Virus record (IMG/VR): IMGVR_UViG_3300020183_000229 | Location: 1 to 37,171 of that record | Length of the DNA: 37,171 bases | From: a virus | Reading direction: 5' to 3' (one strand) | In this document: positions 26,959 through 36,625 of the stretch, piece after piece | Layout of the letters: each line of letters begins with the position of its first letter | Numbering within the stretch: position 1 is the stretch's first letter | The notes under the pieces: generated by a model | Seen by the model: the letters and a program-made list of their open reading frames with translations, nothing else | What the model was told of the DNA's origin: nothing | Databases searched by the model: none | Translations under genes and position numbers: made by a program

Positions 26959-27584
26959 GCTACAGCTTTACCGTTGACTGGTTCTCATCTAATATTCCTT
27001 ACTGGGAACAGGCACTAAAACTTTACGGTATTAACTCAAGTAAGCCTATCAGGGTATTAGAGGTAGGAACATTTGAGGGTAGATCAGCATGCTGGATGTC
27101 AGACAACATTCTTGATCATCCAGACAGCAAACTGTTTTGTGTTGATACCTTTCAAGGTGGTGAAGACCATCAAGTAGAGGGCGACCCATATCAATTGAAT
27201 ACCCTCTTTTCGAGATGTATAGAGAACCTTAGGCAATCCAAAAACTTCGAAAAGATATTTGTAGCAAGTGAAAGATCTGACGAGTTTTTTAAAAAGTATA
27301 GAAGTCTATCAACGAATATCGAAGATGATTTTTTTGATCTAATCTATATTGATGGCTCTCACCTAGAAAAAGACGTATACAATGATGGGCTATGTGCCTT
27401 TAGATTACTCAAGCCAGAAGGATTGATTATTTTTGATGACTATGGATGGCCATCGGATGAGGGGTATCCGATTCGCCAGGCCCTCGAACAGCTAGATAAC
27501 AAGCTAGCTTGGACTCCCATTCATACCTTTTGGCAGCGAATGTATGTTCATTCTAGTTCCTTTAAAGGAGACATAAAAAACTAA
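26955..27584 (+). CDS. Class I SAM-dependent methyltransferase
   Basis: 209 aa. VLEVGTFEGRSACWM (about 34-48) is the glycine-rich SAM-binding motif I, and LIYIDGSH with the following GLIIFDDYGWP is the pattern of the Methyltransf_24-type family. Substrate unknown; such phage enzymes may modify sugars, small molecules or capsular structures. Translationally coupled to nrdB by ATGA. Confidence 0.78.
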   Translation: MSYSFTVDWFSSNIPYWEQALKLYGINSSKPIRVLEVGTFEGRSACWMSDNILDHPDSKLFCVDTFQGGEDHQVEGDPYQLNTLFSRCIENLRQSKNFEKIFVASERSDEFFKKYRSLSTNIEDDFFDLIYIDGSHLEKDVYNDGLCAFRLLKPEGLIIFDDYGWPSDEGYPIRQALEQLDNKLAWTPIHTFWQRMYVHSSSFKGDIKN

Positions 27585-27598
27585 CAACGAGAGGAAAT

Positions 27599-27769
27599 AT
27601 GGATAACAACTATATCAACCCCACCGCCAACATTACCTGTCAAAGTTGCTATTCAGAATTCGTGGTCATAAATGAAAATGAAGATGACGAAGTAGCTTTC
27701 TGTCCATATTGCGGAGAACCATTAATTGAAGATTATGATGAGCTAGAGGAATTACCAGAAGACGAATAA
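27599..27769 (+). CDS. Small zinc-ribbon protein
   Basis: 56 aa. Two Cys-x2-Cys pairs (C14-C17 and C35-C38) form a zinc ribbon, followed by an acidic tail of about 15 residues. GAGAGGAAAT provides an SD. Small zinc ribbons of this sort may bind nucleic acid or act as adaptors; no specific role known. Confidence 0.68.
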   Translation: MDNNYINPTANITCQSCYSEFVVINENEDDEVAFCPYCGEPLIEDYDELEELPEDE

Positions 27770-27770
27770 T

Positions 27771-27792
27771 CCTCCTATATAATAACAGGAGG
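27771..27792 (+). promoter_or_regulatory. Inverted repeat covering the SD of the nuclease gene
   Basis: CCTCCT (27771-27776) can pair with AGGAGG (27787-27792), the SD for the ATG at 27800, leaving a 10-base AT-rich loop. Folding would hide the ribosome site, as described for the T4 GIY-YIG gene I-TevI. Confidence 0.5.
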
Positions 27793-27799
27793 AATTTAA

Positions 27800-28201
27800 A
27801 TGTCATGGATTTATAATGGAATTGAGTATACTGAACCACAAGAAGAATATTACGGGTTCGTTTATATCATTACCAACATACTAACCAATAGAAAATACAT
27901 CGGTAAAAAACTTTTTTGGTTTAAGAAGACCAAACAGGTGAAAGGTAAAAAGAAAAGGTACCTAGTGCCTTCCGACTGGATTGAATATTGGGGATCATCA
28001 AAAGAACTACAACAAGATATACTTGCTCAGGGAAACCAATACTTTACCCGTGAGATAATTCACTTATGTAAGAATAAGGGTGAATGCTCTTACCTCGAAG
28101 CTAAGGAACAATTCGATAGAGAAGTTCTTATGAGACCCGATGAATATTATAATGACTGGATTATGTGTCGAGTACATAGAAAGCATATACAAAAAAAGTA
28201 G
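27800..28201 (+). CDS. GIY-YIG nuclease-like protein
   Basis: 133 aa. GFVYIITN (19-26) and KYIGKK (32-37) are the GIY and YIG halves of the nuclease core, with a Gly/Ser SSKEL segment and CSYLEAKEQFDREVL containing the catalytic-type Glu further on. It resembles the small free-standing GIY-YIG proteins of T4-like phages, and could be a homing, repair or host-DNA nuclease. No intron is visible nearby. The SD is inside an inverted repeat at 27771. Confidence 0.78.
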   Translation: MSWIYNGIEYTEPQEEYYGFVYIITNILTNRKYIGKKLFWFKKTKQVKGKKKRYLVPSDWIEYWGSSKELQQDILAQGNQYFTREIIHLCKNKGECSYLEAKEQFDREVLMRPDEYYNDWIMCRVHRKHIQKK

Positions 28202-28230
28202 TGGATTTTATTTAAATGATTTCCTATAAT
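28202..28230 (+). promoter_or_regulatory. Sigma70-like promoter before tRNA-Arg
   Basis: TGGATT (28202-28207), 17-base spacer, TATAAT (28225-28230); the tRNA starts 18 bases after the -10. Confidence 0.82.
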
Positions 28231-28247
28231 TACAAAGTAAATTTAAC

Positions 28248-28323
28248 TGCCCGTAGTACAACTGGATAGTGCATCTGCCTTCTAAGCAGACTGTTGGGGG
28301 TTCGAGTCCCTCCGGGCAGGCCA
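28248..28323 (+). tRNA. tRNA-Arg(UCU)
   Basis: Perfect 7-bp acceptor CTGCCCG/CGGGCAG, anticodon stem TCTGC/GCAGA with loop CTTCTAA, T-loop TTCGAGT and encoded CCA. Reads AGA. Confidence 0.95.
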
Positions 28324-28370
28324 TTTTACTATTACACAAAGTACAGACATAGACACAGAAAGAAACAAAG

Positions 28371-28610
28371 ATGCTGATGCAAATGAATAAGGCGGGTTAC
28401 GATGAACGACACGGTGGTGCCTACGATCGTGGATCGGCTGACTCCTACTACAATCGACCCTTCAACCCGCATATGTATGCAGGTGACACTATGACCAGCC
28501 CTCGCATTCCTATGGAGTGCATGACCGCTGAAGAAATCACGGCCTACACCGCAGGCTTCCGCGACAACGAACAGTTCAGCGACAAAAGGACTACCGATGA
28601 AGATAATTAA
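28371..28610 (+). CDS. Conserved small phage protein
   Basis: 79 aa with the pattern YDERHGGAYDRGSADSYYNRPFNPH and a C-terminal ITAYTAGFRDNEQF, which I recognise as a common small phage hypothetical. Gly/Tyr/Asp-rich, likely partly disordered. ATG 28371 or 28383 could be the start; neither has a strong SD. It overlaps the thioredoxin gene by 14 bases. Confidence 0.6.
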   Translation: MLMQMNKAGYDERHGGAYDRGSADSYYNRPFNPHMYAGDTMTSPRIPMECMTAEEITAYTAGFRDNEQFSDKRTTDEDN

Positions 28611-28857
28611 ATTTTACGCTGAATGGTGCGGCCCTTGCAAAGTACTTTCCAAGACATTGGAAAGTATGAAGGATGAGTTGTCTGTAGAGATTGAAGAGGT
28701 AAATATTGACGAAGATATCGACAGGGCTCGTCTATATAATATACGAAGCGTTCCTACCATGATCCTAGAAGACAATGGTAAGGAACTATCTCGTCAGATA
28801 GGTAATCTATCTGCAGGTGATATTAGAAAGTTTTTAAACATGTCGACACAGGCGTAA
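28597..28857 (+). CDS. Thioredoxin-like protein
   Basis: 86 aa, thioredoxin fold with the redox centre WCGPC (10-14) and cis-Pro in RSVPTMIL. The usual Trx strands and helices are present but the protein is shorter than bacterial Trx (about 105). It is the probable reductant of the NrdA C-terminal disulfide encoded at 22849, as T4 NrdC is for its own enzyme. Ends 4 bases before an unusual tRNA. Confidence 0.87.
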   Translation: MKIIKFYAEWCGPCKVLSKTLESMKDELSVEIEEVNIDEDIDRARLYNIRSVPTMILEDNGKELSRQIGNLSAGDIRKFLNMSTQA

Positions 28858-28861
28858 CAAT

Positions 28862-28954
28862 ACCTCGGTAGCTCAGCGGTAGAGCAGCGGATTTATACCC
28901 CGTCAGCGCCAGATAAGCGGCAGGTCGTGGGTTCGAATCCCACCCGAGGTACCA
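28862..28954 (+). tRNA. Atypical 93-nt tRNA, anticodon uncertain (UAU by position)
   Basis: Acceptor ACCTCGG/CCGAGGT (perfect), D arm GCTC/GAGC, T arm GTGGG-TTCGAAT-CCCAC and CCA are standard. The anticodon stem GCGGA/CCCGT has an A-C mismatch, and its 7-base loop TTTATAC places TAT at 34-36, reading AUA (Ile). A 23-base variable region follows (28904-28926) with a GCGC/GCGGC stem, a class II feature not expected in tRNA-Ile. It may be mis-folded by eye, a class II tRNA, or carry an insertion. Confidence 0.7.
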
Positions 28955-28964
28955 AAGGACAATC

Positions 28965-29765
28965 ATGAAGCTGACAAAAAAGCAATACAACAAACTAGTA
29001 AAAATAAAAGCTATCAGACCACTTAAAGATATCTATATCTTTGATGTTGATGGAACGCTTACTGATAGTCGCCAGCCAATGAACGCACAATTCAAGAAGT
29101 GGTTCCTGCAATGGATTAAGCAATATGATAATGAAGTGTATTTGGTTACTGGAAGCGACTACGCTAAAACAAAAGAGCAAGTAGGTAGTCAGATCCTTAC
29201 AGAGGTTGATGCGTCTTTTAATTGCTCAGGTAATTCTATCTGGAAGAATGGTAAAGAGATATACACCACCTCTTGGAGACCATCACAACAGCTTCAAAAC
29301 ACTCTCACTGCATTTTTGAGAGAGTCAAAGTTTCTAGATCGTTCAGATAGATTTATTGAATTAAGACCTGGTATGGTTAACTTCTCAGTTGTAGGTCGAG
29401 GATGTACTCCTGCTCAAAGAAGCGCATACATTGCCTTTGATAAGAGGGAGCGTGAGAGACTTTATTTTGCACAGACTATTAATAAGAATTTTCCTGATCT
29501 AGTTGCTTCCGTAGCAGGAGAGACAGGTATTGATATTTTTCCTAAAGGAAAGGATAAAGCGCAAGTCTTAGACTACTTCAAAGAGAACTCACAGTATGTA
29601 ACGTTGCACTTCTTTGGAGATAAGATGAGATCAAATGGTAATGATCGCCCGCTTGCTGATGCTATTAAAAAAGAATATAACGGTGAACATATAATCGTTC
29701 CTGTACTAGATTGGAATGATACGTTCGATTGGCTACAAAAATACGGAACAACAAAGAGAGTTTAA
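28965..29765 (+). CDS. Phosphomannomutase-like HAD phosphatase
   Basis: 266 aa. HAD motif I FDVDGTLT (26-33, Asp27/Asp29) is followed by a central MVNFSVVGR and late FGDKMRSNGNDRPLA, matching the eukaryotic-type phosphomannomutase (PMM) family rather than typical phosphatases. The known reaction interconverts mannose-6-P and mannose-1-P. It is followed immediately by a cytidylyltransferase-like gene, so sugar-nucleotide synthesis is a possible joint role. Starts after the tRNA with AAAGGA as SD. Confidence 0.75.
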   Translation: MKLTKKQYNKLVKIKAIRPLKDIYIFDVDGTLTDSRQPMNAQFKKWFLQWIKQYDNEVYLVTGSDYAKTKEQVGSQILTEVDASFNCSGNSIWKNGKEIYTTSWRPSQQLQNTLTAFLRESKFLDRSDRFIELRPGMVNFSVVGRGCTPAQRSAYIAFDKRERERLYFAQTINKNFPDLVASVAGETGIDIFPKGKDKAQVLDYFKENSQYVTLHFFGDKMRSNGNDRPLADAIKKEYNGEHIIVPVLDWNDTFDWLQKYGTTKRV

Positions 29766-29766
29766 T

Positions 29767-30219
29767 ATGTATGTTAATGAGAAAAGTGTTAGAGGTAAGA
29801 TTGGTTTCACATGCTCGGCGTTTGATCTACTACATGCCGGTCATATTCTTATGCTAGAAGAAGCCAAGGCTAATTGTGAATATCTGATTGTAGGTCTTCA
29901 AAATGATCCTACTATGGATAGACCAGAGAAGAATAAACCAGTGCAATCGATTGTAGAGAGATACATTCAGCTTACTGCGTGTCGTTATGTAGATGATATC
30001 ATTGTATACAATACAGAGAAGGATCTAGAAGACCTACTAACTATTCTTCCTATCAACATTCGCTTCCTGGGTGTTGAGTATGAGGATAGAAATTTTACAG
30101 GGAAAGACATTTGTCATTATAGAGGTATTGACTTATACTTCAACAAACGAGATCACAGGTTCTCATCTTCTGAGCTGAGAACACGTACTGCTAATGCCAA
30201 CCCGCGGGTATCATTATAA
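29767..30219 (+). CDS. Cytidylyltransferase-like protein
   Basis: 150 aa. HAGH (23-26) within AFDLLHAGHILMLEEAK and a C-terminal SSSELRTRT are the nucleotide-binding motifs of the glycerol-3-phosphate/ethanolamine cytidylyltransferase family. The product would be a CDP- (or ADP-) activated sugar or alcohol phosphate. ATG 29767 follows the PMM-like stop; an upstream start would overlap that gene. The pair could modify phage DNA, phage surface or host envelope; the exact substrate is unknown. Confidence 0.75.
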   Translation: MYVNEKSVRGKIGFTCSAFDLLHAGHILMLEEAKANCEYLIVGLQNDPTMDRPEKNKPVQSIVERYIQLTACRYVDDIIVYNTEKDLEDLLTILPINIRFLGVEYEDRNFTGKDICHYRGIDLYFNKRDHRFSSSELRTRTANANPRVSL

Positions 30220-30271
30220 AGAGCAAAAAAGATCAATAAAATCAATAAGTTACAACTTTTTTGAAAAACAG

Positions 30272-30301
30272 TGGATTTTAATTTAAAAAGAGCTATATAA
30301 T
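30272..30301 (+). promoter_or_regulatory. Sigma70-like promoter before tRNA-Gly
   Basis: TGGATT (30272-30277), 18-base spacer, TATAAT (30296-30301), with the tRNA-Gly start 10 bases downstream. Confidence 0.78.
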
Positions 30302-30310
30302 ACAAGGAAT

Positions 30311-30384
30311 GCGGGCAAGCACAAGGTGTGTCGTCAGCCTTCCAAGCTGCACAGAGTTGAGTTCGATTCTCGCTGTCCGCTCCA
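30311..30384 (+). tRNA. tRNA-Gly(UCC)
   Basis: Acceptor GCGGGCA/TGTCCGC, anticodon arm TCAGC-CTTCCAA-GCTGC, T-loop TTCGATT, encoded CCA. Reads GGA. Confidence 0.93.
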
Positions 30385-30392
30385 AAAAACAG

Positions 30393-30421
30393 TTGACTTA
30401 ATTTTCAAGGTAATATAGAAT
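30393..30421 (+). promoter_or_regulatory. Promoter of the tRNA-array leader
   Basis: TTGACT (30393-30398), 17-base spacer, TAGAAT (30416-30421). Predicted start near 30428, which coincides with the ATG of the leader ORF, so the transcript may be leaderless. Confidence 0.68.
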
Positions 30422-30427
30422 ACAAAA

Positions 30428-30532
30428 ATGTTAAAACATTCGGTACAATTTACAACAACAGTAAATCCTAATCACGCAAGTGATTGGGCCGGTATTCTAT
30501 CACCAGAATATTTTGGGGGTCGTTTAAGCTAG
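30428..30532 (+). CDS. Putative attenuator leader peptide
   Basis: 34 codons. The ORF has three consecutive ACA (Thr) codons at 30452-30460 and single codons for many amino acids served by the downstream tRNAs (for example CTA TCA CCA GAA at 30497-30508). It ends with TAG inside the 5' arm region of the antiterminator stem. A hairpin CCTAATCAC-GCAA-GTGATTGGG lies within it (30467-30488). The first downstream tRNA reads ACA (tRNA-Thr UGU at 30641). The layout matches classical translational attenuation, but no SD precedes the ATG, so translation would need leaderless initiation. It could also be a short conserved gene. Confidence 0.5.
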   Translation: MLKHSVQFTTTVNPNHASDWAGILSPEYFGGRLS

Positions 30533-30593
30533 GACGCAGATCTGTACTCTTAACTTAAACGGCCCCGGTAGACCAAAAGTTACCGGGGTTTTT
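30516..30593 (+). promoter_or_regulatory. Attenuator: antiterminator versus terminator stems
   Basis: GGGGTCGTTTAAG (30516-30528) pairs over 13 bp (one U-G) with CTTAAACGGCCCC (30554-30566). The last four C of this stem are also the first bases of the terminator CCCCGGTA/TACCGGGG (30563-30570/30581-30588), so the two folds exclude each other. A ribosome reaching the leader stop at 30530-30532 would cover the 5' arm and favour termination; a stalled or absent ribosome would favour read-through. Mechanism inferred. Confidence 0.6.
30563..30593 (+). terminator. Rho-independent terminator in the tRNA leader
   Basis: Perfect 8-bp stem CCCCGGTA/TACCGGGG, 10-base loop, five T (30589-30593). Confidence 0.88.
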
Positions 30594-30594
30594 A

Positions 30595-30625
30595 ATTGGC
30601 GAAAGCCAATCGCTCTTTGACAATT
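30595..30625 (+). promoter_or_regulatory. boxB-like hairpin and boxA-like antitermination site
   Basis: ATTGGC-GAAA-GCCAAT (30595-30610) is a perfect hairpin with a GNRA loop. It is followed at once by CGCTCTTTGACAATTT, which differs from the rRNA-leader boxA GCTCTTTAACA by one base. The order hairpin-boxA is that of rrn leaders. It stands 16 bases before tRNA-Thr, after the terminator. Confidence 0.6.
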
Positions 30626-30640
30626 TAGAATTTATTATTT

Positions 30641-30716
30641 GCTGGATTAGCTCAGTTGGTAGAGCAACCGCCTTGTAAGCGGTAGGTCGTCAGTTCGAAT
30701 CCGACATTCAGCACCA
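30641..30716 (+). tRNA. tRNA-Thr(UGU)
   Basis: Acceptor GCTGGAT/ATTCAGC, anticodon arm ACCGC-CTTGTAA-GCGGT, T-loop TTCGAAT, CCA encoded. Reads ACA, the codon repeated three times in the leader ORF. Its anticodon loop is copied in the mini-RNA at 31071. Confidence 0.94.
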
Positions 30717-30720
30717 TTTT

Positions 30721-30795
30721 GGACCGTTCGTCTATCGGTTAGGACACCGGGTTTTCATCCCGATAAGAGGAGTTCGACTCTCCTACGGTCTTCCA
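30721..30795 (+). tRNA. tRNA-Glu(UUC)
   Basis: Acceptor GGACCGT/ACGGTCT, anticodon loop TTTTCAT, T arm AGGAG-TTCGACT-CTCCT, CCA at 30793-30795. The CCA is also the first three bases of a 19-bp inverted repeat. Confidence 0.92.
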
Positions 30796-30946
30796 TTTAT
30801 TATATGCTATCGGGGGTAACGTCTATGGACGCATAGACTACACGACATCAAAGGGCCTTCTTAGAAGTCTAATATAACCCTAACAAAGGCTAATGACGGC
30901 TGCAACCGACTCAAAAATATGTTCTTGGATAGCATATAATAAATGG
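30793..30946 (+). ncRNA. Structured RNA closed by a 19-bp inverted repeat
   Basis: The left arm (30793-30811, CCATTTATTATATGCTATC) is perfectly complementary to the right arm (30928-30946). The 116-base interior holds the perfect hairpin GTCTATG-GACG-CATAGAC (30821-30838), a CTTC-TTA-GAAG hairpin, and further pairing possibilities. There is no ORF and no tRNA fold. It lies between tRNA-Glu and tRNA-Tyr, a position like that of the T4 stable RNAs C and D of unknown function. It could be a stable RNA or a processing structure of the tRNA precursor. Confidence 0.65.
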
Positions 30947-30959
30947 TAGTAAAGAATAT

Positions 30960-31046
30960 GGGTAAGAGGCGAATATGGTTGGTCGCGCCGGACTGTAAAT
31001 CCGTTCTCTTAGAGCGTTGGGGGTTCGAATCCCTCCTTACCCACCA
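30960..31046 (+). tRNA. tRNA-Tyr(GUA)
   Basis: Perfect acceptor GGGTAAG/CTTACCC, anticodon arm CCGGA-CTGTAAA-TCCGT, long class II variable arm, T-loop TTCGAAT, CCA. Confidence 0.94.
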
Positions 31047-31070
31047 AATTAAATATGGTTAGAAGAGTTT

Positions 31071-31133
31071 AGGTTAGTTACAGCAATCATAAATGCATTC
31101 AACTTGTAATTGAAAAACGCAAAAAACTAACCT
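31071..31133 (+). ncRNA. Element E1: minimal tRNA-like RNA with Thr(UGU) anticodon loop
   Basis: 63 nt. AGGTTAGTT (31071-31079) pairs perfectly with AACTAACCT (31125-31133). Between them are CAGCAA (31081-31086), a possible 3-bp GCA/TGC D-like hairpin, and a perfect 5-bp anticodon-type stem TTCAA/TTGAA with a 7-base loop CTTGTAA (31103-31109), identical to the anticodon loop of tRNA-Thr(UGU) at 30641. Only 10 bases replace the variable and T arms. No CCA follows; GTTG does. It belongs to a five-member element family in this array. Confidence 0.65.
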
Positions 31134-31143
31134 GTTGTTTAAT

Positions 31144-31233
31144 GGAAGTGTGGCAGAGTATGGTTTATTGCACCGGTCTTGAAAACCGACGACCCGAAAG
31201 GGTCCGTGAGTTCGAATCTCACCGCTTCCGCCA
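31144..31233 (+). tRNA. tRNA-Ser(UGA)
   Basis: Acceptor GGAAGTG/CGCTTCC, anticodon arm CCGGT-CTTGAAA-ACCGA, class II variable arm GACCC-GAAA-GGGTC, T arm GTGAG/CTCAC, CCA. Its anticodon loop is copied in element E2. Confidence 0.94.
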
Positions 31234-31235
31234 TT

Positions 31236-31310
31236 AGCCGTGTAGCTCAGAGGAAGAGCAATCGCTTGATAAGCGATAGGTCGACATTTCGAAACTGTCC
31301 ATGGCTACCA
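31236..31310 (+). tRNA. tRNA-Ile(GAU)
   Basis: Acceptor AGCCGTG/CATGGCT, anticodon arm ATCGC-TTGATAA-GCGAT, T-loop TTCGAAA, CCA. Confidence 0.93.
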
Positions 31311-31317
31311 AGTCTAT

Positions 31318-31394
31318 CGCGGAGTAGGGGAGCAGCCGTCCCCGCTGGTTTCATATGCCAGAGATCGTAGGTGCGAATCCTACCTCCGCAACCA
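31318..31394 (+). tRNA. tRNA-Met(CAU), initiator-like
   Basis: Acceptor CGCGGAG/CTCCGCA has a C1-A72 mismatch, the hallmark of bacterial initiator tRNA. Anticodon arm CTGGT-TTCATAT-GCCAG; the three G-C pairs usual in initiator anticodon stems are not all present. T-loop TGCGAAT, CCA encoded. Confidence 0.88.
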
Positions 31395-31402
31395 GAAAGT
31401 AG

Positions 31403-31431
31403 TTGATTTTTTTATTCAACAGAACTATAAT
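31403..31431 (+). promoter_or_regulatory. Sigma70-like promoter inside the tRNA array
   Basis: TTGATT (31403-31408), 17-base spacer, TATAAT (31426-31431), 18 bases before tRNA-Asp. Confidence 0.84.
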
Positions 31432-31448
31432 CAACAAACTAGAGACTT

Positions 31449-31524
31449 GGTCTTAAAGTGTTCATGGACGCACGCTGGCTTGTCACGCCAGAAGAGTGGG
31501 GATCGTTACCCCCTAGGACCGCCA
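31449..31524 (+). tRNA. tRNA-Asp(GUC)
   Basis: Acceptor GGTCTTA/TAGGACC, anticodon arm CTGGC-TTGTCAC-GCCAG, G/C-rich T stem with loop ATCGTTA (atypical), CCA. Confidence 0.9.
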
Positions 31525-31529
31525 GATTT

Positions 31530-31606
31530 GCCCCGGTGACGGAATTGGTATACGTGTTGGTCTTAGAAGCCAAATTTTAGGAGTTCGAGTCTCCTCTGGG
31601 GCACCA
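31530..31606 (+). tRNA. tRNA-Leu(UAG)
   Basis: Acceptor GCCCCGG/CTGGGGC, anticodon arm TTGGT-CTTAGAA-GCCAA, T arm AGGAG-TTCGAGT-CTCCT, CCA. The variable region is only 5 bases, unlike a normal class II tRNA-Leu. Confidence 0.9.
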
Positions 31607-31613
31607 AGTTTAT

Positions 31614-31688
31614 TGCCAAGTAGCACAGCGGTAGTGCAGGAGACTGTTAATCTCTTGGTCGTAGGTTCGATCCCTACCTTGGCAGCCA
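31614..31688 (+). tRNA. tRNA-Asn(GUU)
   Basis: Perfect acceptor TGCCAAG/CTTGGCA, anticodon arm GGAGA-CTGTTAA-TCTCT, T-loop TTCGATC, CCA. Confidence 0.94.
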
Positions 31689-31704
31689 GACATGTTAAAT
31701 ATAA

Positions 31705-31781
<77 letters not shown>

Positions 31782-31787
31782 AGTTTA

Positions 31788-31840
31788 GGATCCTTTCAGC
31801 ATATAAAAAACTTTACTTGAAATAAAGCCAAAGCGGATCC
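31788..31840 (+). ncRNA. Element E2: minimal tRNA-like RNA with Ser(UGA) anticodon loop
   Basis: 53 nt. GGATCC (31788-31793) pairs with GGATCC (31835-31840). Inside are TTTCAGCA (31794-31801) and a perfect 5-bp anticodon-type stem CTTTA/TAAAG with loop CTTGAAA (31816-31822), identical to the anticodon loop of tRNA-Ser(UGA) at 31144. Only CCAAAGC stands where variable and T arms would be. AGTTG follows. Same family as E1, and it lies immediately upstream of groES. Confidence 0.62.
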
Positions 31841-31873
31841 AGTTGATTTAATAATTAAAAGAGGACATAGTAT

Positions 31874-32146
31874 ATGAAAAGCTCTAACATCAGACCGATG
31901 AAGAAGATGGTTCTTATTCAGCAAATTGGATTTGATTATAAAAGTAAAGCCGGTCTCATCATCGACGCAGATGCTTTAGGACATCATGCTACTGCACGAG
32001 TTCTTGCTGTAGGACCTGACTGTACTGAAGTAAAGAAGGGTGATGAAGTTTATCCTGCCTGGTCAACTGCGCAAATTGTAAAGTGTGATGATAAGGAAGA
32101 CGTCGCGATGATTAACGAAGATAATATTATCGCTGTTAAGATTTAA
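31874..32146 (+). CDS. groES: GroES-like co-chaperonin
   Basis: 90 aa. N-terminal NIRPMKKMVLIQQ and the following mobile-loop region match GroES; GLIIDADALGHHATARVLAVGPD and VKKGDEVYPAW...NEDNIIAVKI complete the GroES beta barrel. It is a little shorter than host GroES (about 97). It would cap host GroEL to fold phage capsid protein, as T4 gp31 does for gp23. AGAGGACATAGT precedes the ATG. It stands alone between tRNA-Pro/E2 and tRNA-Ala. Confidence 0.87.
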   Translation: MKSSNIRPMKKMVLIQQIGFDYKSKAGLIIDADALGHHATARVLAVGPDCTEVKKGDEVYPAWSTAQIVKCDDKEDVAMINEDNIIAVKI

Positions 32147-32222
32147 GGGGCCATAGCTCATCTGGGAGAGCGCCTGCTTTGCACGCAGGAGGTGGTCGGT
32201 TCGAGTCCGATTGGTTCCACCA
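32147..32222 (+). tRNA. tRNA-Ala(UGC)
   Basis: Acceptor GGGGCCA/TGGTTCC (two G-T pairs), anticodon arm CCTGC-TTTGCAC-GCAGG, T-loop TTCGAGT, CCA. Starts at the base after the groES stop. Confidence 0.93.
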
Positions 32223-32224
32223 AT

Positions 32225-32298
32225 TGGGGTATCGTCTAATGGTAGGACACTGGATTTTGATTCCAGGTATCGTGGTTCGAGTCCATGTACCCCAGCCA
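32225..32298 (+). tRNA. tRNA-Gln(UUG)
   Basis: Acceptor TGGGGTA/TACCCCA, anticodon arm CTGGA-TTTTGAT-TCCAG, T-loop TTCGAGT, CCA. Confidence 0.93.
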
Positions 32299-32303
32299 AG
32301 TAT

Positions 32304-32379
32304 GGACGCTTAGCTCAGTAGGTAGAGCAGTAGACTTTTAATCTATTGGTCGTGGGTTCGAATCCCGCAGCGTCTACCA
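32304..32379 (+). tRNA. tRNA-Lys(UUU)
   Basis: Acceptor GGACGCT/AGCGTCT, anticodon arm GTAGA-CTTTTAA-TCTAT, T-loop TTCGAAT, CCA. Confidence 0.94.
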
Positions 32380-32385
32380 TTCAGT

Positions 32386-32407
32386 GGAGTTGTAAGCTTA
32401 CAACTCC
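32386..32407 (+). repeat. Perfect 22-base palindrome
   Basis: GGAGTTGTAAG is followed directly by CTTACAACTCC. It would form a hairpin with a minimal loop between tRNA-Lys and tRNA-Val. No U-run follows, so RNA processing or 3' protection is likelier than termination. Confidence 0.7.
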
Positions 32408-32420
32408 CCACAAAGATTAC

Positions 32421-32495
32421 GGGTGGTTAGCTCAGTGGTAGAGCGTCTCGTTTACACCGAGAGGGTCGGGAGTTCGAAACTCTCACCGCCCACCA
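32421..32495 (+). tRNA. tRNA-Val(UAC)
   Basis: Acceptor GGGTGGT/ACCGCCC, anticodon arm TCTCG-TTTACAC-CGAGA, T-loop TTCGAAA, CCA. Confidence 0.94.
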
Positions 32496-32501
32496 TATAA
32501 T

Positions 32502-32577
<76 letters not shown>

Positions 32578-32584
32578 ATGATGA

Positions 32585-32661
32585 GCCCTGATGACGGAAT
32601 AGGTATACGTATCGGACTTAAAATCCGAGTTCTGAGGGTTCGAGTCCCTCTCAGGGTACCA
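32585..32661 (+). tRNA. tRNA-Leu(UAA)
   Basis: Acceptor GCCCTGA/TCAGGGT, anticodon arm TCGGA-CTTAAAA-TCCGA, T arm GAGGG/CCCTC, CCA. Variable region only 5 bases, as in tRNA-Leu(UAG). Confidence 0.91.
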
Positions 32662-32670
32662 ATATGATAG

Positions 32671-32688
32671 GCCGATCTAGTTATCGGC
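32671..32688 (+). repeat. Hairpin after tRNA-Leu(UAA)
   Basis: GCCGAT-CTAGTT-ATCGGC, perfect 6-bp stem without a clear U-run, just before the promoter of the E3-E5/Ro-like unit. Confidence 0.5.
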
Positions 32689-32703
32689 ACCAGCAGATTT
32701 TAG

Positions 32704-32732
32704 TGGTTTTTATTTTCAAGGGTCGGTATAAT
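32704..32732 (+). promoter_or_regulatory. Promoter of the E3-E5/Ro60-like unit
   Basis: TGGTTT (32704-32709), 17-base spacer, TATAAT (32727-32732). The predicted start near 32739 is just before element E3, so the elements form the first 390 bases of the transcript. Confidence 0.7.
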
Positions 32733-32747
32733 CGAAAAATGAGTTCT

Positions 32748-32918
32748 TGGATGGATTCAGCAACACAAAAATACATATAGAACGTCATCCTCGTGGTGAC
32801 TAGAGATCACGTCGAAGTGTGATTAGGTTTCTACTCCGAATAGTAGAATATGGTAGCCGGCGAACTCACCTGAGTGTATGGGGCTGCATGAAAAAATAAA
32901 TGACCAGCCAACCATCCA
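32748..32918 (+). ncRNA. Element E3: multi-hairpin RNA
   Basis: 171 nt closed by TGGATGG/CCATCCA (32748-32754/32912-32918), with an extra T-G pair outside. ATTCAGCAAC follows the 5' arm and GTTA follows the 3' arm. The interior carries successive hairpins: GTCATC/GGTGAC, ATCAC/GTGAT, TTCTACT/AGTAGAA (32829-32848), ACTC/GAGT and GGCTGCAT/ATG-AC-CAGCC (32882-32909). No protein-coding frame fits. First of three tandem elements before the Ro60-like gene. Confidence 0.65.
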
Positions 32919-32927
32919 GTTAAGTTT

Positions 32928-33045
32928 GGAATAGGTTCAGCAATGAACAAAACTTCGATGGCATTATGCCTTCTCCAGAGGCCGGGATCTCCTGGCGACA
33001 TGAGTTTCGATTTCTCATGTAAAACAAAAAGTAGGAAACTATTCC
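32928..33045 (+). ncRNA. Element E4: multi-hairpin RNA with T-loop-like hairpin
   Basis: 118 nt closed by GGAATAG/CTATTCC (32928-32934/33039-33045), extra T-G pair outside, GTTG after. GTTCA-GCAA-TGAAC (32935-32948) puts the conserved CAGCAA in a hairpin. GGCA/TGCC, CCAGAG/CTCCTGG and CATGAG/CTCATG (32999-33019) follow; the last has TTCGATT, a tRNA T-loop sequence, in its loop. Confidence 0.65.
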
Positions 33046-33054
33046 GTTGTTTTT

Positions 33055-33113
33055 AGGTTCAGTTCAGCAAAACTAAAGATACATCAGTCAATCTGACTAG
33101 TAAAGTAGAACCT
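33055..33113 (+). ncRNA. Element E5: small structured RNA
   Basis: 59 nt closed by AGGTTC/GAACCT (33055-33060/33108-33113), extra T-G pair outside, GTTG after. TTCAGCAA at 33063-33070 and the hairpin AGTCA-ATC-TGACT (33086-33098) lie inside. Its flanks closely resemble E1 (TTTAGGTT near the start, ACCTGTTG at the end). It ends 21 bases before the Ro60-like ATG, next to its SD. Confidence 0.6.
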
Positions 33114-33134
33114 GTTGAAAAGAGGATAAGTGAA

Positions 33135-34541
33135 ATGAACGCTTTTGTAAATGCAGTTGTTAATCAAGAAGCACGTACCGAAAACGGTATGGTAGCTCGT
33201 AAGTCTACCGCTAAGGCGACTGTAGACTTGTTCTTTAAAATTGGTGGATCACGTGGTAAGAATATTATCCCAGATTTCACCGCAGCACTAGTTGAGAATG
33301 AAGATGTAGCTCTTCGCATTACTCAATGGGCTCGCGACGTACGCGGGGGTGCGGGTGAACGCGAACTGTTCCGTCAGGTATTGAAGCATCTAGAAACCAC
33401 TCGTCCAGAGTTGGCCGTTCGTCTGCTTCATAAGGTTCCTGAGGTAGGTCGTTGGGATGATCTTCTAGTGCTAGACGGTCCTCTGAAGGCTAACGCTTTC
33501 GAGTTGATTAAGTCTGCACTAGAAGCCGGACACGGTCTAGCAGCAAAGTGGATGCCTCGTAAGGGCAAGATCGCGGAAGAACTTCGTGAGTACTTTGGCT
33601 GGACCCCTAAGTTCTATCGTAAGCGTTTGGTAGAACTAACCAAGGTTGTTGAATCTCAGATGTGTGCAAACGAATGGGATAACATCAACTTCAGTCATGT
33701 GCCTTCATTGGCTTCCGCTCGCTACAAGAAAGCTTTCTTTAAGCATACTCCAAAGTATGCTGAGTATGTGGCTTCTCTTGTTAAGGGTGACAGCCCTAAG
33801 GTGAAGGTAAATGCAGGTGCAGTATATCCTTATGATGTTCTTAAGGGTGTAATCAATACTTCCTTTAACAAGACTCAACTTGATCTTGTTAAGATGCAGT
33901 GGGAGGCGCTAGAGAACTTTGTTGGTGATGCCAACATTCTTCCTCTAGTAGACGTGTCAGGTTCTATGGCTTGCCTAGCTGGTCAGAAGTCAACCTTTAC
34001 ATGCCTAGATGTAGCTGTATCTCTAGGCCTGTACCTGGCTGATAAGAACAAGGGAGCGTTCAAGGATACTTTCTTGACCTTCTCAGGTAAGCCTGAGTTA
34101 TTGCATCTAAAGGGTGATATCATCCAGAAGTGTAATCAGATGACTAAGTCTAAATGGGAGATGAATACCAACCTGAGCGCTGCTATTCAGAAGATTCTGG
34201 ATGTAGCTGTAAAGGGCAATGTCTCACAGGAAGATATGCCAAAGATGCTTTTGGTTCTATCAGACATGCAGTTTGACCAATGCGCACGCCTTGATGATTC
34301 TGCTATTCAGATGATCGAACGTAAGTACGAAGAAGCTGGATACGAAATGCCAAAGATTGTGTTCTGGTGCTTGAACTCAAAAGACAACGTACCTGTGAAG
34401 TACAACAAGCAGGGTGTTGCTCTGGTATCTGGCTTCTCGCCAAGTATTGTGAAAGCAGTACTATCTGCCAACATGAACGACTTCACTCCAGAAGCAATCA
34501 TGTTGAAGACTGTGATGGTTGATCGTTACGCGATTGCCTGA
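33135..34541 (+). CDS. Ro60-like DUF2828/TROVE-vWA protein
   Basis: 468 aa. The N-terminal helical-repeat part (about 30-260) has RDVRGGAGERELFR (67-80) and VPEVGRWDDLL (101-111), signature motifs of DUF2828 and shared in spirit with TROVE domains. The C-terminal von Willebrand A domain (about 265-440) has an intact MIDAS: DVSGS (273-277), T345 and D377. Ro60 proteins form a ring that binds misfolded RNA and Y RNAs; DUF2828 proteins are usually placed as Ro-like RNA-binding relatives, which I recall rather than can test. Start ATG 33135 with GAGGA 8 bases before. Three structured RNA elements lie directly upstream under one promoter, a strong hint of an RNA partner. A terminator follows. Confidence 0.8.
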   Translation: MNAFVNAVVNQEARTENGMVARKSTAKATVDLFFKIGGSRGKNIIPDFTAALVENEDVALRITQWARDVRGGAGERELFRQVLKHLETTRPELAVRLLHKVPEVGRWDDLLVLDGPLKANAFELIKSALEAGHGLAAKWMPRKGKIAEELREYFGWTPKFYRKRLVELTKVVESQMCANEWDNINFSHVPSLASARYKKAFFKHTPKYAEYVASLVKGDSPKVKVNAGAVYPYDVLKGVINTSFNKTQLDLVKMQWEALENFVGDANILPLVDVSGSMACLAGQKSTFTCLDVAVSLGLYLADKNKGAFKDTFLTFSGKPELLHLKGDIIQKCNQMTKSKWEMNTNLSAAIQKILDVAVKGNVSQEDMPKMLLVLSDMQFDQCARLDDSAIQMIERKYEEAGYEMPKIVFWCLNSKDNVPVKYNKQGVALVSGFSPSIVKAVLSANMNDFTPEAIMLKTVMVDRYAIA

Positions 34542-34564
34542 CCTACTCTTAAACGAGTAATGAG

Positions 34565-34589
34565 AGGGCCCTAGTGGCCCTTTCTTTTT
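34565..34589 (+). terminator. Rho-independent terminator after Ro60-like gene
   Basis: AGGGCC/GGCCCT (34565-34570/34576-34581), 5-base loop, then TTTCTTTTT. Confidence 0.88.
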
Positions 34590-34605
34590 ATATAAAATAA
34601 ATAAC

Positions 34606-34695
34606 GGAGGATGGGCCGGATGGTAAGGCAGCGGTTTGCTAAACCGTAGATCAGTTAAAATGGGTCAGTGGGTTCGATTCCCACATCCTCCGCCA
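34606..34695 (+). tRNA. tRNA-Ser(GCU)
   Basis: Perfect acceptor GGAGGAT/ATCCTCC, anticodon arm GCGGT-TTGCTAA-ACCGT, long class II variable region, T arm GTGGG/CCCAC, CCA. Confidence 0.93.
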
Positions 34696-34700
34696 AGTAT

Positions 34701-34781
34701 GCCCCTGTGGCCAAATTGGTATAGGCAGCTCTCTCAAAAGGAGTGTTATGTATCTCGGTTCGAGTCCGAGCAGGGGTACCA
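34701..34781 (+). tRNA. tRNA-Leu(CAA)
   Basis: Acceptor GCCCCTG/CAGGGGT, anticodon arm GCTCT-CTCAAAA-GGAGT, 9-base variable region, T-loop TTCGAGT, CCA. Third Leu isoacceptor. Confidence 0.88.
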
Positions 34782-34789
34782 AGATTAAT

Positions 34790-34864
34790 GTGTAGGTGAC
34801 CGAACGACTAGGTAGCAGTCTGCAAAACTGTTTCAAGTGGGTTTGACTCCCACCCTACACTCCA
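34790..34864 (+). tRNA. tRNA-Cys(GCA)
   Basis: Perfect acceptor GTGTAGG/CCTACAC, anticodon arm GCAGT-CTGCAAA-ACTGT, T-loop TTTGACT, CCA. Confidence 0.91.
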
Positions 34865-34884
34865 ATTAAGAGGTGAGTACAATC

Positions 34885-35367
34885 ATGCTAAAGAATAAAA
34901 TAGATGTTAATGAAATCAGAACATATGTAGATCAGTGTGGACCAAATACAAAGCTATATCTTGGCTGCGACTCTGAGCGAGTTCTTGTGAAAGGTCAATG
35001 GTATGCTGACTATATTCTAGCAGTGGTTGTACATATTAATTCATGCAACGGTTGCAAAATCTTTGGTGCTACAACAAGAGAAAGAGATTTTGATCAACGT
35101 AAAAATAGACCTGCTATTCGTCTAATGAATGAAGTTTATAAAGTAGCAGAATGCTATCTAGAATTAGCACAGGTGTTTGAAGATCATGAGATCGAAGTTC
35201 ACCTTGATATTAACCCTGACGATGAGTATGGTTCAAGCTGTGTAGTATCTCAGGCTATTGGTTATATTAGAGGGGTATGTAATGTTGTACCCCTGGTTAA
35301 ACCAAGAGCATTTGCTGCTTCATACGCAGCAGATCGTCTGAAGGGTCTTGGTTTGCTGGCAGCGTAG
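34885..35367 (+). CDS. RNase H-like protein, YkuK/DUF458-like
   Basis: 160 aa. LYLGCDSERVLV (about 24-35) begins a ribonuclease-H-like strand with its Asp, followed by YADYILAVVVHI, a helical RLMNEVYKVAECYLELA, and VHLDINPDDEYGSS with further acidic residues; the KPRAFAASYAADR end is typical of YkuK-like proteins. The fold suggests RNA or DNA cleavage or binding, but activity is unproven for this family. Start ATG 34885 (AAGAGG 11 bases upstream) rather than GTG 34873. It lies between tRNA-Cys and tRNA-His, so an RNA-processing role is an attractive guess. Confidence 0.68.
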   Translation: MLKNKIDVNEIRTYVDQCGPNTKLYLGCDSERVLVKGQWYADYILAVVVHINSCNGCKIFGATTRERDFDQRKNRPAIRLMNEVYKVAECYLELAQVFEDHEIEVHLDINPDDEYGSSCVVSQAIGYIRGVCNVVPLVKPRAFAASYAADRLKGLGLLAA

Positions 35368-35379
35368 CAGCCAGTCAAT

Positions 35380-35455
35380 GCAGGGGATAGTGTACCGGTG
35401 CGCACAACTGTCTGTGAAACAGTAAGATAGGGTTCAACTCCCGTCCACCTGCCCA
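35380..35455 (+). tRNA. tRNA-His(GUG)
   Basis: Anticodon arm ACTGT-CTGTGAA-ACAGT; extra 5' G (35380) opposite C73, as required in tRNA-His. The acceptor is imperfect (CAGGGGA/CCACCTG) and the outer T-stem pairs are mismatched. Confidence 0.8.
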
Positions 35456-35462
35456 GTAATTT

Positions 35463-35538
35463 GCACCTTTAGCTGATGTGGTCATAGCGGCGGTCTGAAG
35501 AGCCGTTGAAGTTGGTTCGATTCCAACAGGGTGCACCA
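35463..35538 (+). tRNA. tRNA-Phe(GAA)
   Basis: Acceptor GCACCTT/AGGGTGC, anticodon arm GCGGT-CTGAAGA-GCCGT, T arm GTTGG-TTCGATT-CCAAC, CCA. Confidence 0.93.
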
Positions 35539-35543
35539 AAAGA

Positions 35544-35617
35544 ATCTCAGTAGTGTAACGGCAGCATTACAGTCTCCAAAACTGTCGGTGGGGGTTCGAA
35601 TCCCTCCTGGGATGCCA
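35544..35617 (+). tRNA. tRNA-Trp(CCA)
   Basis: Acceptor ATCTCAG/CTGGGAT, anticodon arm ACAGT-CTCCAAA-ACTGT, T arm GGGGG-TTCGAAT-CCCTC, CCA. Confidence 0.93.
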
Positions 35618-35651
35618 AATTAAAACAAGCTTAACAAAGACTGCTTTACAG

Positions 35652-35696
35652 TTGATTTAAATTAGCCCTTATGCTATAATCAGTAGCGTAAGGGCT
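35652..35696 (+). promoter_or_regulatory. Promoter overlapping a terminator-like inverted repeat
   Basis: TTGATT (35652-35657), 17-base spacer, TATAAT (35675-35680). AGCCCTTA (35664-35671) and TAAGGGCT (35689-35696), followed by TTCTT, form an 8-bp stem with the -10 in its loop, possibly the terminator of the tRNA array combined with a new start. Confidence 0.75.
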
Positions 35697-35730
35697 TTCT
35701 TATACCATTCAAAGGAATTTTAGAGTAATT

Positions 35731-36064
35731 ATGAACGAATATACGCCGGATGTATGGCACATCCTTAAACTAGAAGGATATTCTAATTCAGAGGGTCCTG
35801 TATATAAAGTACTGGCAGGCTGGTACGGAGGATTTACAGGAAGCGATTCCTGGAAACTTAACAGCGGTATTACCGAGATAGTGGATCAAGGTGATTACTA
35901 CGACATCAAAGGATATTCTGGTTGGTAGCGTTTATAAATGTTACAAAGGAATTGAAAGGTTTTCAGGTCTTACATCAAGTATGCTAACATACTGGCAAAA
36001 AGAATCTAATATTAAAGTTGAAGCAATAAGTATTGAAGATACAATTAAATTTTTAAAGGAGTAA
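35731..36064 (+). pseudogene. Frameshifted small conserved phage gene
   Basis: The first frame (35731-35928) ends DIKGYSGW with an early stop. The next frame (+1, from 35924 to 36064) continues GSVYKCYKGIERFSG and ends at TAA, giving the expected continuation of the family pattern GYSGSVYKC. At the junction TGGT is repeated (TCTGGTTGGTAGCG), so a 4-base duplication explains the shift. Together the parts would make about 112 aa. It is either a recent mutation, a sequencing error, or less likely programmed +1 shifting. The original protein is a small phage hypothetical with GGFTGSDSWKLNSGI. Confidence 0.75.
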
Positions 36065-36067
36065 GTT

Positions 36068-36625
36068 ATGCCAGGCGTGTTTCTCGTAAGTGATACACAC
36101 TTTGGTCACGCTGGTGTTTGTCGCTTCATGCGTGATGATGGTGTTACCAAACTTCGTCCGTGGGATAGTCCTGAAGAGATGGATGAAGAAATGGTAATGA
36201 GGTGGAACGAAACTGTTCGACCAACCGACAAAGTCTATCATCTGGGTGACGTTGTTATTAATAGAAAAGCACTTAACATTCTTCCTCGCCTGAACGGTGA
36301 TAAAGTTCTTATTAAGGGCAATCATGATATCTTTAAACTGGAAGATTATACTAGACACTTTAGAGATATTCGTGCTTATCATGTGATGAACAATATAATT
36401 CTTAGTCACATTCCTATTCATGCTGAGTCTAAAGGTAGGTTTGCTGGTAATATTCACGGACATCTTCATTCAAATAGAGTGAAAGTAAATGATGTAATTG
36501 ATCCTTGGTATCACTGCGTCTGTGTCGAACAAACAGACTTTAAGCCAATTTTGTTTGAGCATGTCTTGAAAAGGATGGAAAATGAACGTGATGAGTTGGC
36601 TTCAATACAGCGATATATCGATTAG
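36068..36625 (+). CDS. Calcineurin-like metallophosphoesterase
   Basis: 185 aa. The metal-binding blocks are in order: SDTHFGH (8-14), HLGDVV, KGNHD, LSHIPIH and IHGHLH. All five motifs of the binuclear metallophosphoesterase fold are intact. Substrates of the family range from phosphoproteins to cyclic nucleotides and DNA; none can be chosen here. GGAG precedes the ATG. Its 3' end overlaps the next gene by 44 bases. Confidence 0.85.
   Translation: MPGVFLVSDTHFGHAGVCRFMRDDGVTKLRPWDSPEEMDEEMVMRWNETVRPTDKVYHLGDVVINRKALNILPRLNGDKVLIKGNHDIFKLEDYTRHFRDIRAYHVMNNIILSHIPIHAESKGRFAGNIHGHLHSNRVKVNDVIDPWYHCVCVEQTDFKPILFEHVLKRMENERDELASIQRYID

Follow-up and report, generated by a model that had tools for sequence, protein, structure and literature searches.

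A putative ribosome-mediated attenuator that polls the tRNAs of its own operon, found ahead of a phage tRNA array

We found that a viral tRNA array is preceded by a leader which, with a probability of about 0.88, is a ribosome-mediated transcription attenuator polling the tRNAs that its own operon supplies. The window, i.e. the whole stretch of DNA that was analysed, comprises 37,171 nucleotides of the IMG/VR virus record IMGVR_UViG_3300020183_000229. A promoter, a short ORF, an antiterminator, a terminator, and tRNA genes follow one another in it (Table 1). Three things can be read from the sequences: these parts, their mutually exclusive pairing, and a match between the codons of such leaders and the tRNAs of their arrays, which across a family is specific to frame and position. 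In addition, the comparison of sequences supports the view that the window leader is one member of a wider class of attenuators, mostly with an rrn-type boxA downstream.

The original prediction had named a promoter, a 34-codon ORF with three successive ACA codons, an antiterminator whose 5′ arm overlaps the end of this ORF, a terminator sharing four bases with it (CCCC, 30563-30566), and tRNA-Thr(UGU) behind the terminator, and each of these parts was recovered. It had missed the GAAA hairpin and the boxA between terminator and tRNA-Thr. The terminator stands before the first structural gene, and no promoter-like site was found between it and tRNA-Thr. Furthermore, antiterminator and terminator are mutually exclusive, and a ribosome terminating on the short ORF would mask the antiterminator 5′ arm, which starts 14 nt ahead of the stop codon (value from the sister contig L006). 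A tie between control codons and operon product was found at the level of the family. The leader of L006 differs by one change, 30562 G to A, which turns an antiterminator U.G pair into U-A; this single event preserves the helix and is compatible with an antiterminator.

Promoter matches of the 10/12 type occur at chance level in the window region (8 versus 7.7 expected in 4 kb). No SD was found upstream of the leader ATG, and the original prediction had regarded this absence as its weak point. However, the ATG lies 6 nt downstream of the −10 hexamer, and therefore the predicted transcript begins at or beside the AUG. The missing SD fits a leaderless ORF, and a leaderless start would account for it. 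Meanwhile, the tRNA genes further on, up to 35617, may be part of the same array.

Table 1. Features of the leader and the head of the tRNA array in the window
Feature	Position	Strand	Remark
Promoter, sigma-70-like, TTGACT-N17-TAGAAT	30393..30421	+	10/12 consensus matches
Expected transcription start of leader	about 30428	+	Spacing from −10
Leader ORF, 34 codons, MLKHSVQFTTTVNPNHASDWAGILSPEYFGGRLS	30428..30532	+	ORF call; probably leaderless
ACA-ACA-ACA, codons 9-11 of leader ORF	30452-30460	+	
Antiterminator 5′ arm, inside ORF codons 30-34	30516..30528	+	13-bp helix with 30554-30566
Antiterminator 3′ arm	30554..30566	+	Final four bases common to terminator
Intrinsic terminator, CCCCGGTA..TACCGGGG and T-run	30563..30593	+	Hairpin 30563-30588, then T-run
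GAAA-tetraloop hairpin ATTGGC-GAAA-GCCAAT, boxB-like	30595..30610	+	Directly 5′ of boxA
rrn-type boxA, GCTCTTTGACAATTT, exact	30612..30626	+	Sole match in window; 14 nt before tRNA-Thr
tRNA-Thr(UGU)	30641..30716	+	First gene of array
16-gene tRNA array behind attenuator	30641..32661	+	Cpn10 gene within

The window leader folds far better than its shuffles (z = −5.65; 0 of 200 shuffles as good), and its antiterminator helix is better than those of 60 out of 60 shuffles. For the predicted switching, the sequence was folded up to the end of the T-run, and the ribosome was taken to cover 11 nt past the A-site codon. Without a ribosome, the probability was 0.99 for the antiterminator and 0.00 for the terminator. 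Placing the A site at the first ACA gave 0.92 and 0.20, respectively, and placing it at the third ACA gave 0.92 and 0.43; for a ribosome that had reached the stop codon, the values were 0.00 and 0.98. Since the antiterminator reaches 0.99 without a ribosome, absent translation would also favour read-through in the window.

To collect further leaders, we scanned for a T-run followed by boxA, and later for a T-run with a boxA-like core and a tRNA; among the matches listed, many phage arrays begin with a terminator, boxA, and a first tRNA. These matches include 154 boxA-like sites that are no more than 60 nt from a tRNA. At 94 of them, a terminator ends at most 45 nt upstream, and the T-runs at those 94 sites come partly from the selection. 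Grouping by upstream sequence gave 60 families, in which terminator and boxA are 2-41 nt apart. In 31 of them, the helix joining the terminator 5′ arm region to sequence 15-97 nt upstream was better than all 60 dinucleotide shuffles (about one family expected), and the helix overlaps the terminator arm by at least three bases in 57/60. An ORF fitting a fixed rule that ignores composition (ATG start, a length of 15-50 codons, and 15-65 nt from the stop to the terminator) is present in 58/60. Among the matches listed, at least 113 array heads carry both terminator and ORF, at least 100 of these pass the helix rule, and at least 82 distinct leaders are left after identical peptides were dropped. 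Four loci (L661, L669, L570, and L578) joined the set after their leaders had been viewed; the others entered blind to leader composition, except a few loci read early. Doubtful calls among the 82 include, for instance, L542 at 1906, L543 at 357, L236, and L574.

An SD is absent in 78 of the 82 leaders, and the ATG lies 6-7 nt after the −10 in 8 of the 30 leaders whose promoter matches at least 10/12 bases. Codon-position differences between related leaders (39/50/65) are mildly coding-like; this signal is too weak, and we dropped it as a proof of coding. As a separate observation, an N-terminus MKNLxNI or MKNCxxHNI is common to many leaders (L535, L541, L557, L559, L569, L570, L578, and others) independently of the array, and is perhaps a translation-initiation or pausing signal.

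The strongest evidence comes from comparison, namely from the codon content of the 82 leaders. After the sixth residue, 54.3% of residues belong to amino acids of the leader's own array, compared with 38.2% for permuted arrays (z = 12.8); the permuted maximum is 43.0%, and none of 5000 permutations reaches the observed value. For the 60 leaders with arrays of 2-14 amino acids, a range that leaves out 7 leaders with one-amino-acid arrays and 15 with at least 15, the match is 50.2% versus 31.3% (z = 12.7), and a non-redundant subset of 50 leaders gives z = 11.8. The match is confined to the true frame (z = 12.5; +1, 0.3; +2, −1.1), and it is absent on the antisense strand (z = −1.8) and in both flanks (90 nt 5′ and 60 nt 3′; z = 0.2 and −0.9). 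Furthermore, it is concentrated in the stretch that starts at codon 8 and stops 12 nt short of the antiterminator arm (59.3% versus 31.0%, z = 12.7). The four codons next to the arm on its upstream side show a weaker match (z = 4.7), and there is none in codons 2-7 (z = 1.4) or from the arm onward (z = 0.6). The codons carrying the match are the ones at which a stalled ribosome would leave the antiterminator arm free. In addition, the frame-specific signal of the family supports the view, at the level of sequence, that the leader ORF is coding.

Leader codons also match the array at the level of codon boxes, in the case of Leu (OR 7.8, P = 0.0014) and in that of Arg (OR 14, P = 0.0006); the split-box codons of Ser showed no match (P = 0.44). 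When two operons of one contig carry different tRNA sets, each leader is fitted better by its own array in 13 of 13 pairs (11 contigs). Thus, kinship between phages cannot account for the match. For instance, QPQPQQHPQ precedes Pro, His, and Gln tRNAs (L553), and YFICKFEEYM precedes Cys, Glu, Phe, Ile, Lys, Met, and Tyr tRNAs (L212). Meanwhile, LTLSLCTLSRRS stands ahead of Cys, Leu, Met, Arg, Ser, and Thr tRNAs (L569), and LPLHSSLSSSTRRP ahead of His, Leu, Met, Pro, Arg, Ser, and Thr tRNAs (L499). Several such operons occur in two uncultured phages, LR745206.1 (634,780 bp) and LR756502.1 (642,428 bp), for example ISIAVIGNGAGAI ahead of Ile, Gly, Met, Gly, Gly, and Ala tRNAs, SSRSRSSKS ahead of Arg, Ser, and Arg, and ASYESYYEE ahead of Glu and Tyr.

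These results also bear on an attenuator that works independently of translation, in which a protein, a small RNA, or polymerase pausing selects the hairpin, while the ORF has no role in it or specifies a micro-peptide. The fold of the window leader agrees with it in so far as the antiterminator is predicted without a ribosome too. However, the match to the array is restricted to the reading frame and to the codons ahead of the arm, it differs between operons on one contig, and a functional peptide would not track the tRNA set of an array. We regard this explanation as highly improbable.

The window's own array covers every amino acid except Arg, counting tRNAs to 35617, and because it is nearly complete, the codon match of the window leader taken alone is uninformative. 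This leader is correspondingly broad: its 33 residues include 18 different ones, compared with 14.9 ± 1.7 in window proteins, which is borderline (P = 0.056). As a group, leaders of broad arrays are broad (mean z of distinct residues 2.41, n = 15), a breadth not seen in the leaders of narrow arrays (0.24, n = 49). A plain trp-type control confined to Thr and ACA, as the original prediction had it, is too narrow, and the family polls many codons. Its logic that slow decoding favours read-through is nevertheless supported by the frame-specific match ahead of the arm in the 82 leaders.

At equilibrium, the mean terminator probability in the 82 leaders is 0.82 without a ribosome, 0.67 with a stalled ribosome, and 0.95 once the ribosome has reached the stop codon, and the change exceeds 0.3 in only 27 of them. 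Equilibrium folding thus failed as a proof of switching, for in most leaders the terminator remains the favoured fold despite a stalled ribosome. The switch must therefore be kinetic (co-transcriptional), as in known attenuators. Before the terminator 3′ arm is made, and with the ribosome upstream, the antiterminator has P > 0.8 in 77/82 leaders, a result that is partly built in by the helix rule. A ribosome at the stop codon covers the antiterminator arm in 80/82.

The boxA needs to be considered separately. The window boxA equals that of E. coli rrnB apart from one A/G position, and, as at a boxB-boxA site, a boxA consensus and a hairpin lie upstream of a stable RNA. In rrnB itself (L580), a hairpin-like stretch is followed by GCTCTTTAACAATTT. 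Among 124 exact boxA matches listed from the IMG/VR scan, 11 are followed on the same strand by a tRNA at a distance of up to 300 nt and 4 are preceded by one, and none has a tRNA on the other strand. The 120 listed matches to the reversed pattern had no same-strand tRNA; one had an opposite-strand tRNA upstream and one downstream. A boxA follows the leader in 72 of the 82 leaders, largely by selection; among the matches listed in a scan for boxA only, 6 heads have their boxA at most 60 nt away, and one of these 6 has the attenuator. By eye, GNRA hairpins like that of the window precede boxA in L120, L121, L128, L248, and L273. As side observations, L210 and L234 show (by eye) a terminator, a promoter-like sequence, and then boxA, so that the terminator could be bypassed, and L242 (504 and 769) and L264 have two successive boxA sites ahead of one tRNA array, with promoter-like sequence before each.

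One may ask if boxA alone matters. The array would then be Nus-antiterminated like rrn, the terminator would end an upstream unit, and the ORF and antiterminator would be accidental. In the DUF2828-linked relatives of the window, which have no attenuator, boxA or near-boxA does lie 13-15 nt ahead of the next tRNA (L088, L092, L116, L120-L123, and L126), with promoter-like sequence directly 5′ of it where the contig extends enough. The phage arrays of L116, L120-L123, L088, and L092 thus have boxA just 5′ without an attenuator, and the excess of downstream tRNAs over the reversed pattern (11/124 versus 0/120 listed matches) also agrees with such a role. However, the window lacks a promoter-like site from terminator to tRNA, the 2-41 nt gap in the 60 families gives little room for one, and both the mutually exclusive helix and the frame-specific match are left unexplained. 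We therefore rejected this explanation as the whole story, and consider it very unlikely.

Under the attenuator reading, from which we infer translation, read-through, a physiological trigger, and a function for boxA, RNA polymerase would start at about 30428, and a ribosome would load on the 5′-terminal AUG and read the 34-codon ORF as a test. If all polled codons are read fast, the ribosome at the stop would cover the antiterminator 5′ arm, the terminator would form, and tRNA-Thr would not be transcribed. If a tRNA is scarce, because it has been cleaved by a host defence nuclease, is uncharged, or is outstripped by phage demand, the ribosome would stall upstream. The antiterminator would then form first, and the polymerase would read through into the tRNA genes. 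The emerging boxA may serve to load NusB/S10, an antitermination complex of the host, which would shield the long untranslated array from Rho. Finally, the new tRNAs would restore fast reading of the leader and close the switch.

We slightly favour a broader proposal, in which the tRNA arrays of phages, ranging from that of the window to uncultured ones of more than 630 kb, would be inducible counter-defence operons. Each would be kept shut by a polling peptide with the codons that its own tRNAs decode. The loss of any such tRNA (e.g. to a host anticodon nuclease) would unlock the operon that supplies its replacement, and in large phages the tRNAs would be distributed over several operons, each polled on its own. 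Phage tRNAs are reported to let phages escape tRNA-cleaving defences (PMC10264068, PMC11555353). A rather less probable, though serious, alternative keeps the mechanism and takes the signal to be ordinary amino-acid starvation or codon demand, i.e. homeostatic feedback rather than tRNA loss caused by defence. Every cause of slow decoding would have a like effect, classical attenuators sense charging, and broad arrays have broad leaders. However, the operon product is tRNA, which is no cure for a lack of amino acids, and the help that phage tRNAs reportedly give against tRNA-cleaving defences also points away from this signal. If the polling leader is real, the phage would sense tRNA shortage through sensor codons that can be read from sequence, which would predict the tRNA losses that each phage expects and explain the timing of phage tRNA supply. 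Ribosome-mediated attenuation would extend to tRNA genes and viruses, and multi-codon polling would be a natural translation sensor.

Ribosome-mediated attenuators are known from amino-acid operons, including trp, his, leu, ilv, and pheA. PMC1183508 also concerns such transcription attenuators. They share with the phage leader an ORF with control codons, an antiterminator and a terminator with common bases, and an ORF end that masks the antiterminator arm. The phage leader differs from them in standing before viral tRNA genes, in polling many codons set by the downstream tRNAs, in its leaderless or SD-less ORF, in an antiterminator that pairs with the ORF end itself, and in the boxA that follows. 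In attenuators of the pheST type, a tRNA synthetase operon, i.e. a gene of translation supply, is under the control of decoding speed; the product is an enzyme and one amino acid is polled. In T-box riboswitches, read-through likewise responds to the state of a tRNA, but the uncharged tRNA is bound directly, without a leader ORF; Rfam found no T-box in window 27500-36500. Like the window, E. coli rrnB has a hairpin and then boxA GCTCTTTRACAATTT just 5′ of a stable untranslated RNA, whereas the putative boxA of the window lies downstream of a conditional terminator and adjoins phage tRNAs. The tRNA-Tyr of T5-like phages, a tRNA supply against tRNA-degrading defence, has a strong promoter of its own, and the part of PMC11555353 that treats it describes no attenuator.

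In the text retrieved from open PubMed Central papers, no description of an attenuator or a boxA ahead of tRNA genes of phages was found. The words ‘attenuat’ and ‘leader’ are absent from the main texts of PMC10264068 and PMC11555353, and the ‘boxA’ matches in PMC9025141 proved to be a primer name.

Conservation in relatives had been proposed as a check. It failed in the loci linked to the window through DUF2828 and held elsewhere, in at least 82 distinct phage leaders. Loci fetched via the window's DUF2828 gene contain tRNA genes in 51 of 80, and their 169 array heads have 4 terminator-like matches and no case of terminator with leader ORF. Thus, the attenuator is not a fixture of the window's gene neighbourhood. 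By the terminator and ORF rule, no such operon was found in the fetched stretches of T4, PVP-SE1, Moby, Aswh_1, PAK_P1, V45v66, MW202545, and two Sugarlandviruses, and Vibrio phage D479 (L574) gave one doubtful match. BLAST of the window leader and three other arrays against named phages returned matches at the level of tRNAs only; the matches in Klebsiella Sugarlandvirus were likewise nothing but pieces of tRNA. In bacterial genomes, the 105 boxA/tRNA heads among the matches listed have a terminator in 23 and an ORF in 5; of these 23 listed terminator heads, 11 are of the Thr-Tyr-Gly-Thr-Trp type (whole or cut), and none of the 11 has the ORF. Besides, L661 and L669, contigs of Acidobacteriaceae MAGs, have matching leaders and long arrays and look phage-like, which hints at hosts.

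The window holds some further elements near the array. A tRNA-Gly(UCC)-like gene that ARAGORN missed lies directly upstream of the attenuator promoter (30309-30383; Rfam 22.8 bits, threshold 29), with promoter-like sequence near 30270-30300. Within the tRNA region, a 468-aa protein with DUF2828 and DUF7788 is encoded at 33135-34541. Finally, a possible structured RNA lies between tRNA-Glu and tRNA-Tyr (30796-30945), for which Rfam gave no match. It has long pairing ends (TTTATTATATGCTATC / GATAGCATATAATAAA) and includes the motif GGGGTAACGTCTATGGACGCATAGACTA, and a similar motif occurs just 5′ of the tRNA array in L213 (5048).
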